A stretch of 64,000 nt of DNA from contig OX419339.1 of assembly GCA_948470475.1 (NCBI GenBank), positions 442,001 to 506,000 on the forward strand, given 5' to 3'. Below, one piece after another: positions 24,579-42,877 of this stretch. The position numbers and the translations under genes are program-made. Origin of the DNA: Galaxea fascicularis (lineage: Eukaryota; Cnidaria; Anthozoa; Scleractinia; Euphylliidae). The notes below the pieces were generated by a model. That model searched no databases, was not told where the DNA came from, and saw only the letters and a list, made by a program, of their open reading frames with translations. Position 1 is the stretch's first letter; the number at the start of each line of letters is the position of its first letter.

Positions 24579-27500
24579 GTAATCAAGAATTGTCGTCAGC
24601 CTATAACAGGGCTTGGAATTAACTTTTTCATCCATTCACCAGTTGGCGACTTAAGAAAGAAAAATTATGCCACTAGTTGCCATCGCTGAATTTCTGGTTG
24701 CATTGGCTACCAGTGAGTCGCAATTTTGAGCCCTGCTTTAAGATGACAGATACACAAATTAGTATTGAAAAACTTTAAAGGTAAAAGTTGTGGCGAAGAT
24801 TGAGTTAGGAATTTTAGTGGCTTCTTTCCTTCCTGAAATGACTGTCCAAGGAAGCCTAAGGCATTGTCTACAGAACGTAACCCTAATGTTACATGCTTAT
24901 AACCAGTCTACAGAACGTAACCCTAATGTTACATGCTTATAACCAGTCTACAGAACGTAACCCTAATGTTACATGCTTATAACCAAACAGTGCAGTTGGT
25001 TATCAAAAAGCATCATAATCTCACCATAAGTTGTAAACAAACAAAGTAATAATAGTTATTAGAACATTTCAGGAGTTAATTTTGTAGGTTACTTGAGACA
25101 GAAATGCAATCGCCTCTCATTTGTTGCAAGCGGTCACATGAAGGAATCATGACAGATGTTTAGAGTACCAGCCCTTAATGTAAATCTGCTGGTCATTATG
25201 TAAACTGCTGTTATGGCATCAAAGTTGCATTTTGAAGTCAATACTATATATATACTGTACGTAGCTACATTTGAGGTAATCAAACTAAATTTGCATGATT
25301 AATGCCCCACTTTTTTCAGCAAAAAAAAAGGCTGATGAAATTGTTTCTTCAATTTAGTCTTCAATTTCTCAGAGAAGAATAGTCATGAAAGTGACATCAA
25401 GAAAAAAGTTTTAGTCGCATTGGCAAACATACGGGTTGCAATTTTGAGCTTTGTCTTGGTGTTATGGTCTCTCCTCTCATAGTACAGTGTAGGTCCACAT
25501 CAGCCCACTGGCTGCCTTGATTTTTTGCATGACCTACATGTACATGTACTTAAATAAAATAAATAAAGAAGGAGAATAAGAAATTTACCACCAAACAACA
25601 ATAACAACAACAAATTTGTTTATTTAATAAAAACAAAGAAGATTATGAAGAAAGAAAGCTTCAAGAGCAAGGACACAAGTGTATTTTCCCAAGGAAGAGA
25701 GGGGCAAATATGTTTGCCAATACTTGTACTTGCCCTTGGGGGAACTTTGGGGTCTTACTTTGTGTACCAGATACTTACTGGACACAGATGATGTAAAACA
25801 AACGAAATTATTGTTTTCTGTCAATGCCTCTGGGTTATGAGGTATTGTTTCATGTTTTTCTTTTGTTTTATGTCATCTATATCCCGTACATGAAGTAAGA
25901 GCTAAACTTTCATGTACAGGTATCCCTTTGATGCAGCAAGGGAGTGCTTTGAGCTTATACATGTAGTAATGCAGATGGTGACCTAAAGAATTTATCTTTA
26001 AATTCAGTGATTGATAATGAAATATAAATAATAAGGTTCATGCTCTTAGTGTAGGTGTTGTAGGTCAAAATGAAACTCAGGTTGAAATGAATTTCTTTTG
26101 TCTCCTAACCCTAATTATTCATGGATCATAAGTAACTAGGGCTAGGAGACAACTCCTGTATGCCACATAGAAATGGATGACGAGGAAGAGAGAAAGGAAA
26201 TCAAATTTGGTTGAAATCATTTGACCTTAATACCTCAACTTAGATTTTATAATCCAGCAATTATCATTCTTTTCTCACATTATTTCCTTATTGGTTTTAG
26301 CCCTCAAGCCACAGAAATTTCAGGTGAGGGTGGAGACTTGTGTGTTACATCTTTTCAAATTTTGAAAAATAAAATTTGAAGGGTTGATTTTTTGTCAGCA
26401 CCTTTCAAAAAACTGTCCCAAGGGTCCAAATTTGTTGTCTGACCCCCGCCTTTGCAAAAACTGGCCATCCTTAGGAAGGGGGGGGGGGGGGGGGAGGGTG
26501 GTTAAAAAGTGGAATCACCCATAGCGTTCGATAGTGGTGAACAAACACAGCCGGGCGAAACACAAGACAATCGACAAACATTCAATGCAGCTTGACCATG
26601 ATTGTTTTCATTGCAGTTGCAATGCCCATTGAAATCAACAATGACTCTTCCACAATAGAACAAACAATAGGCTAGTTCATACATACTAATGATACATACT
26701 TGTATAACTGTATATGCCTATGTGCATTATGTCCATACTAGTACAGTCAACTCTCTTGTAAGTGACCACCCTTGTTGCACGACAAAGTGGTTGCTTACTG
26801 GAAAGATCAACAAAATAAGTCTAACACTGGATTGATCAATTAATTACATAAACATATTACCTAATCAGCTAAAATTAGGCAAATACAAACTAATTTATTT
26901 GATTTTTTTCACATGCAACAAGTTTCGGGAAAAATAGAGTGGAGTGTACATTTCTTGTCAATGTGTCTCATGTTAATGAAAATCACCAGAAATTTAAACC
27001 GAACAAAACCTAGGAAAACAATGGGGTAGCGTCATTAAAAATTGAACTTTTGTCACTTTTGAGTAGTGATTTACTAACGATCATGCATGATTATGTTGGG
27101 TGGTCACTTACCTGAAACAGAAAACAAAAGAATATGTCAAATTGCTGGCCTAAAAAGTGGTCGCGGTCGCTTTAGAAATATGAGTGGTGGTCGCTTACGA
27201 GAGAGCTCTGGGAACAGTGTTTAACTGAGAGACAAAACAGTTGTTTACGAAGTGGTCGCTTACGGGAGGTGGTCGCTTACGAGAAGTGGTCGCTATGAGA
27301 GAGTTGACTGAATGTGCATATTCTTACATGAGTTGTGCCCTCATTACTGACACATTTTGGTTTGCTTATCTCTGAGCTGCACTGTATACAAGTGAATCTA
27401 AAGCAAGGCACAAACTATTGTTCCTGATCCAAGGTCTCAGTTCATTATTTTGTTTGCAGAATCTTTCATATGAAGATGTGGTGAAAAAAGTGTTGAATCA

Positions 27501-42877: not shown

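Follow-up and report, generated by a model that had tools for sequence, protein, structure and literature searches.

A Ufd2 core joined to a BIRC6-type UBC domain in place of the U-box: a transcribed fusion in corals with relatives across eukaryotes

Introduction

In the current view, E4 enzymes such as Ufd2 are U-box scaffolds that rely on a borrowed E2. Can such a scaffold carry an E2 of its own? The question is raised by a locus of the coral Galaxea fascicularis, for which the initial annotation of a 64 kb stretch of DNA (the whole stretch analysed, hereafter the window) proposed a Ufd2 core fused to a ubiquitin-conjugating (UBC) domain. We examined whether this is one gene, how widely it occurs and how its product might act.

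We found no description of a Ufd2-core/UBC fusion in the open-licence PMC literature. The excerpted text of a snail survey ascribes one U-box-less ufd-2 protein to annotation (PMC6548493). Ufd2 does not occur in the excerpted text of a survey of domain architectures in the ubiquitin system (PMC4327156), and neither Ufd2 nor UBE4 occurs in the excerpts of PMC11354881 and PMC10971424.

Results

Gene model and transcription

The coral gene lies on the plus strand and has 43 exons (15475-42877) with 4,515 coding bases for 1,504 residues (Table 1). Exons 7-43 (37 exons, 27460-42877) form a single reading frame once spliced, with no internal stops, and all splice junctions inside the gene are GT-AG with the sole exception of a GC donor at exon 24. 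Upstream of 27460, exons 1-5 (15475-24578) and a 23-base exon 6 are in phase with the remainder. These upstream exons are backed by alignment to five close relatives (P0001-P0005); P0001 is 73.6% identical to the model over 1,537 columns, the alignment starting at model residue 2. Exon 6 is the least certain exon of the model. The interval first annotated, 27460..42877, thus holds exons 7-43, but the gene starts six exons further upstream, at 15475.

Table 1. Features of the coral Ufd2-core/UBC gene, in positions of the window
Feature	Position	Strand	Evidence
Exon 1: start codon; residues 1-22 form a predicted signal peptide	15475..15542	+	Aligns with N-termini of P0001-P0005; hydropathy only
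Exon 2: predicted luminal segment begins	20589..20658	+	Phase and splice sites fit
Exon 3: EF-hand, 12-residue loop at 23019-23054	22992..23081	+	EF-hand_1 profile, 24.8 bits, under cut-off
Exon 4: predicted transmembrane helix (residues 126-144, 23655-23711) followed by basic residues	23508..23736	+	Hydropathy only
Exon 5: UBE4B-like helix with VBM-like VRAARLRK (24182-24205), linker after	24159..24578	+	Consensus from excerpt of PMC5559722
Exon 6: 23 bases, ALKPQKFQ	26301..26323	+	Best candidate by splice sites; aligned with ELKEPKIKT in P0001
Exons 7-16: N-terminal portion of Ufd2-like region, ahead of Pfam core match	27460..31429	+	
Exon 17 into exon 35 (exon 35 end, 38948): Ufd2P_core, residues 563-1208	31607..38801	+	Pfam 306.5 bits
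Core-UBC linker: remainder of exon 35, exon 36, beginning of exon 37	38802..40150	+	
BIRC6-type UBC domain and C-terminal helices, exons 37-43	40151..42874	+	UQ_con 73.4 bits; BIRC6 247 bits; 3ceg E 2.3e-18
Catalytic Cys1368 codon, exon 40	41002..41004	+	Motif alignment
Stop codon TGA	42875..42877	+	

Intron 9 contains a tract rich in AGC/AGT-type trinucleotides (28360-28670), which is probably a mere repeat. A 122-codon ORF on the minus strand (28243-28611) overlaps part of this tract.

Protein P0006 (729 aa, encoded by a 3,288-base contig) is identical to the C-terminal 729 residues of the coral model (exons 23-43) apart from a single R-to-K difference. Its genomic counterpart (33775-42874) measures 9.1 kb, so the 3.3 kb contig is free of the introns and was taken as cDNA. 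Since it spans the core/UBC join, a spliced transcript crosses the join and the two parts belong to one gene. Two alternatives had been named for this locus, transcripts ending between the core and UBC exons and a separate transcript start at 39-40 kb. Neither holds, as the P0006 contig crosses the join and its transcript runs through from 33775. The proteins P0001, P0002, P0004 and P0005 (1,528-1,537 aa, from contigs of 4.9-6.5 kb) are too long for contigs retaining introns of coral-gene size and so support a transcribed fusion.

Domains and active site

Only two families passed their Pfam cut-offs in the coral protein: Ufd2P_core (PF10408; 306.5 bits, profile positions 3-627 of 628) and UQ_con (PF00179; 73.4 bits, cut-off 27). 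EF-hand, UEV and other families stayed below theirs, and the families reported at E values up to 0.1 did not include the U-box (PF04564). A complete Ufd2 core had been annotated in exons 7-32; the core is indeed complete, and its Pfam match begins in exon 17 and ends within exon 35 in our exon numbering, which differs from the earlier one. When compared with solved structures, the UBC domain scored 247 bits with BIRC6, at most 134 with UBE2O, at most 116 with UBE2Z and at most 50 with ordinary E2s, in agreement with the BIRC6/UBE2O type first assigned to it. The core matched yeast Ufd2 (63.5 bits).

AlphaFold2 models were obtained for P0006, the coral C-terminal half (pLDDT 88, pTM 0.86), and for the algal orthologue P0028 (pLDDT 88.5, pTM 0.91). 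In Foldseek searches, the best match of the coral C-terminal half was the BIRC6 UBC (3ceg, E 2.3e-18, 42% identity) and that of P0028 was yeast Ufd2 (2qiz, E 4.6e-17, 797 columns); P0028 matched the BIRC6 UBC too. The same lists contain 9khs, in which Ufd2 is seen with Ubc4-Ub and K29-linked di-ubiquitin; in a protein with a built-in UBC, this E2-bound state would be permanent. The linker between core and UBC has low model confidence in part and contains one Tyr that is invariant in a 48-row alignment.

The coral UBC has both the NPN motif and the catalytic Cys. The active-site Cys had been numbered 1345 and is Cys1368 in the full-length model. Around it, the stretch PNLY.DGKVCLSL is invariant in the 48-row alignment except at the dot position.

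Distribution of the fusion

The same domain order is present in other corals and in anemones, and also far beyond cnidarians. Among the matches listed in three protein searches, at least 111 distinct protein clusters (90% identity) have a Ufd2 core and a UBC, and none of these 111 has a listed U-box (PF04564); each search scored only the ~8,000 candidates sharing most words. The first search contributed 48 clusters, a Trebouxia query (P0030) 61 new ones and a P0113 query two more. The first search gave 55 matches (48 core and UBC, three core and U-box, four UBC only). Among the best 120 of 784 matches to Trebouxia P0030, 85 had both domains, 34 had the UBC only and one, algal P0100, had the core without a listed UBC. 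Six of the nine matches to P0113 had both domains.

The cnidarian sources named are Oculina, Porites, Actinia and Nematostella; the Nematostella gene is LOC5513359. Other animal sources are three Branchiostoma, Lingula, the sponge Dysidea and the molluscs Liolophura, Littorina, Babylonia, Nucella, Batillaria and Haliotis. Green algae are represented by Trebouxia, Myrmecia, Botryococcus, Ulva (by identifier), Chlamydomonas, Volvox and Haematococcus, and further eukaryotes by Chrysophaeum (Pelagophyceae), Chrysochromulina (Haptophyta) and Sexangularia (Amoebozoa). P0113 and P0152 are probably from diplonemids, as read from their label prefixes Hpha and Sspe, and many further matches carry no source name. 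Among the matches listed, no named protein with both domains comes from a vertebrate, insect, fungus or land plant. A fusion confined to cnidarians is ruled out by these clusters, which include algae and other eukaryotes.

One green algal fusion protein, P0063, is annotated as "ubiquitin-conjugating enzyme E2 R521"; we take R521 to be the name of a mimivirus gene. The Chlamydomonas member P0077 (CHLRE_12g510300v5; by its name, locus Cre12.g510300) matched the Ufd2 core with 191.9 bits and the UBC with 78.2 bits in Pfam. In the excerpted text of a paper on lead stress in Chlamydomonas, Cre12.g510300 is given as Ubc21 (PF00179), a separate gene being given as Ufd2; it is counted among the E2 genes upregulated under high lead, and the last column of the table shows its fold change, from very low expression, as 3.62 (probably log2) (PMC7838096).

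The catalytic Cys is present at its site in 110 of the 111 fusion proteins (105/109 by pattern, three more with an altered NPN motif by eye, plus P0152 and P0153); in P0069 none was seen by pattern or by eye. This conservation rules out a degenerate UBC.

Origin of the fusion

A quick tree was computed from the core alone (52 rows, 592 columns, no UBC columns), with rows labelled animal, algal or protist by their named source or, where there was none, by similarity. The 14 animal rows formed one clade (support 99) and the 17 algal rows another (97), and the three UBE4Bs were set apart (100). Constraining the animal fusion members with UBE4B was rejected (p-AU 0.012). A recent replacement of the U-box in an animal UBE4B is thereby rejected, subject to long branches and to only three U-box rows, all animal UBE4B. 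A single origin of the fusion is likely on these data.

In a UBC tree (109 rows kept of 129 after 20 near-copies were dropped; seven motif-less proteins were missed and ordinary E2s were not included), the fusion UBCs needed two label changes (one compatible) and surrounded the BIRC6-like clade. Animal BIRC6-like UBC domains were thus placed among the fusion UBCs, and BIRC6 may have taken its UBC from the fusion family, or the reverse.

N-terminal modules in animals

The initial annotation missed the predicted membrane-anchored N-terminus, as it did the spread outside cnidarians. We compared 23 full-length animal or animal-placed proteins, the coral protein included and five N-truncated ones excluded. 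The EF-hand of the coral protein scored E 1.3e-5 and 24.8 bits vs a Pfam cut-off of 25.4, and its loop is canonical by pattern. The loop pattern occurs in 15 of the 23 proteins, namely all eight cnidarian or cnidarian-placed ones and seven of the eight mollusc or mollusc-placed ones (P0018 is without it). A hydrophobic N-terminus followed by a membrane helix, as judged by hydropathy only, was found in 17/23: 8/8 cnidarian, 6/8 mollusc (not P0016 and P0018) and 3/3 amphioxus proteins. Mollusc P0016 has a weak helix only (1.44), and neither part of this membrane module was found in Lingula P0013 or in three sponge-placed proteins. Both the loop pattern and the pair of N-terminus and helix were found in none of the 82 other fusion proteins, of which 73 begin with Met and 56 have at least 1,200 residues, so that some are fragments.

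Just behind the membrane helix, and in Lingula without one, lies a helix with the pattern [DE]-aliphatic-RxxRLx[RKS]L, which was composed after inspection of the sequences. All 12 proteins from cnidarians (or placed with them), amphioxus and Lingula have it, and the three UBE4Bs compared begin with it; it is absent from the eight molluscs and the three sponge-placed proteins. According to the excerpt of PMC5559722, Ube4b binds p97 via an N-terminal VBM with the consensus aliphatic-RXXRXXR. The coral VRAARLRK departs from it in the last R, which is replaced by K, and one of the 12 proteins, Actinia P0008, is a strict match. These modules may confer type I topology, p97 binding and calcium sensing.

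Ubiquitin-binding modules outside animals

Three of six non-animal proteins scanned passed Pfam cut-offs for such modules (UBA in P0048 and P0099, UIM in P0116). A UIM-like pattern, composed after a first look at the sequences, was found in 31/82 non-animal vs 1/22 animal proteins, with a mean of 5.2/82 in shuffles. The presence of UIM-like or UBA modules in many non-animal members fits an enzyme acting on chains.

Other observations in the coral genome, the window and the matches

The coral genome has a second Ufd2-core locus (C3), in which the sequence behind the core reads N and which, by eye, looks UBE4A-like. A search of the genome with a crinoid UBE4B gave no match, an outcome that carries no weight as a sign of absence. 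U-box matches lie at three places (C2, C5 and C6). A tblastn search with P0053, P0054 and P0009 found no UBE4 core at C5 and C6, in a weak test that gave only one short match even at the C3 core.

Downstream of the fusion gene, ORFs 46362-46796 and 63246-63671, both on the minus strand, hit the lipoxygenase family PF00305 in its C-terminal part (E 3.4e-11 and 4e-15), which suggests a tandem lipoxygenase gene pair on the opposite strand. A 275-codon ORF (5149-5976, minus strand) matched no Pfam family at E 0.01 and contains hydrophobic stretches. Among the protein matches, P0156 (2165 aa, eukprot) has the E1 domains ThiF, SCCH, 4HB and FCCH together with UQ_con, all over Pfam cut-offs, and is a candidate E1-E2 fusion.

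Discussion

In-frame exons, Pfam matches, contig P0006 and at least 111 clusters agree with the proposal that a Ufd2 core is joined to a UBC and that the U-box is absent. The fusion is transcribed and conserved. Our best reading is that it is an ancient E2/E4 hybrid which was anchored to the membrane later, in animals.

Like Ufd2, UBE4A and UBE4B, the fusion protein has a complete Ufd2P_core and a fold match to yeast Ufd2 (2qiz and 9khs), and its cnidarian, amphioxus and Lingula members share the N-terminal helix of UBE4B. Unlike these enzymes, it has its own E2 domain and no U-box; its members stand apart from animal UBE4B in the core tree, and many animal members add a predicted signal peptide, an EF-hand and a membrane helix. 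Because the U-box was looked for and not found, the protein is not a U-box E4 by membership, and probably works like one.

With BIRC6, a dual E2/E3, it shares a UBC with the active-site stretch RFNPNLY.DGKVCLS, an N-extension and the 42% identity of the fold match, but Pfam found no other BIRC6 region in the coral protein, and the UBC is coupled to a Ufd2 core. UBE2O, an E3-independent E2, belongs to the same broad UBC class at a greater distance and has its own N-terminal region where the fusion has the Ufd2 core. A BIR domain or the UBE2O N-terminal domains are class features of BIRC6/UBE2O-type hybrids; Pfam found neither in the coral protein. Ubc6/UBE2J are ubiquitin enzymes of the ER membrane. 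So are Hrd1 and gp78, which bind p97 by a VBM and a VIM, respectively, according to the excerpt of PMC5559722. The animal fusion resembles all of these as a ubiquitin enzyme tethered to a membrane and differs in its predicted type I topology with a luminal EF-hand and in having E2 and E4 parts in one chain.

We consider it fairly probable that the single protein works as an E2/E4 hybrid whose own E2 domain serves to lengthen ubiquitin chains. The kinship with BIRC6 and UBE2O suggests that it acts without a RING or U-box, and the Ufd2 scaffold together with the UIM/UBA modules suggests chain elongation. Charged by E1 on Cys1368, the UBC would act on a substrate that already bears ubiquitin and is kept close by the helical Ufd2 core, so that a separate E2 or a U-box would not be needed; this chemistry we infer from sequence. 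The coral, anemone, amphioxus and most mollusc orthologues would be type I membrane proteins with the enzyme in the cytosol and, except in amphioxus, with the EF-hand on the ER-luminal or outer face of the membrane. Recruitment of p97 in coral, anemone and amphioxus would fall to the UBE4B-like helix that closely follows the membrane segment. Chains would then be added at the membrane to substrates under extraction by p97, e.g. in ER-associated degradation (ERAD), and luminal calcium might adjust this step. The non-animal proteins show no such membrane module, and many of them have UIM-like or UBA modules instead.

The protein could also be an E2/E3 hybrid like BIRC6 and UBE2O, in which the core binds particular substrates for de novo mono- or multi-ubiquitylation by the UBC and elongation is not a special function. 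The UBC is nearest to just these two enzymes, which are named dual E2/E3 or E3-independent in the PDB, and a Ufd2 core could have turned into a substrate-binding surface. However, the Ufd2 fold is retained, and the UIM-like and UBA modules of many non-animal members point to substrates already bearing ubiquitin; we therefore hold this to be rather unlikely. In ERAD, Ubc6 and the Cue1-Ubc7 pair supply E2 to RING E3s, and the predicted membrane anchor and cytosolic UBC of many animal members would allow the tethered UBC to serve merely as a membrane-bound source of charged E2 for a RING E3 partner. This is improbable, since the UBC is nearest to the E3-independent kinds, the membrane module occurs in none of the 82 non-animal members and the Ufd2 scaffold would be superfluous. 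That neighbouring genes or a mis-assembly place a U-box-less Ufd2 remnant before a BIRC6-like gene has practically no chance of being right and we regard it as refuted: intron 36, at the join, is ~1 kb long, but contig P0006 crosses the join and the identical domain order recurs in at least 111 clusters.

Beyond the preferred reading, an E2/E4 hybrid, a wider proposal may be put forward tentatively, as one that we would not yet bet on. The fusion may represent an overlooked enzyme class, a one-chain E2/E4 hybrid that was present near the eukaryote root, was apparently lost from the best-studied models and uses its inbuilt E2 to elongate chains. Its animal form would be an ER-membrane machine in which p97-dependent extension of chains is coupled to luminal calcium. 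The predicted luminal EF-hand and the p97-type helix suggest a direct link from secretory-pathway calcium to protein extraction, for which we know of no counterpart. A conserved family with a built-in E2 would show an E4 scaffold working without U-box allostery, and the fusion would offer a one-polypeptide system for the study of chain lengthening. Its occurrence in Chlamydomonas and Nematostella makes these proposals testable in tractable organisms.
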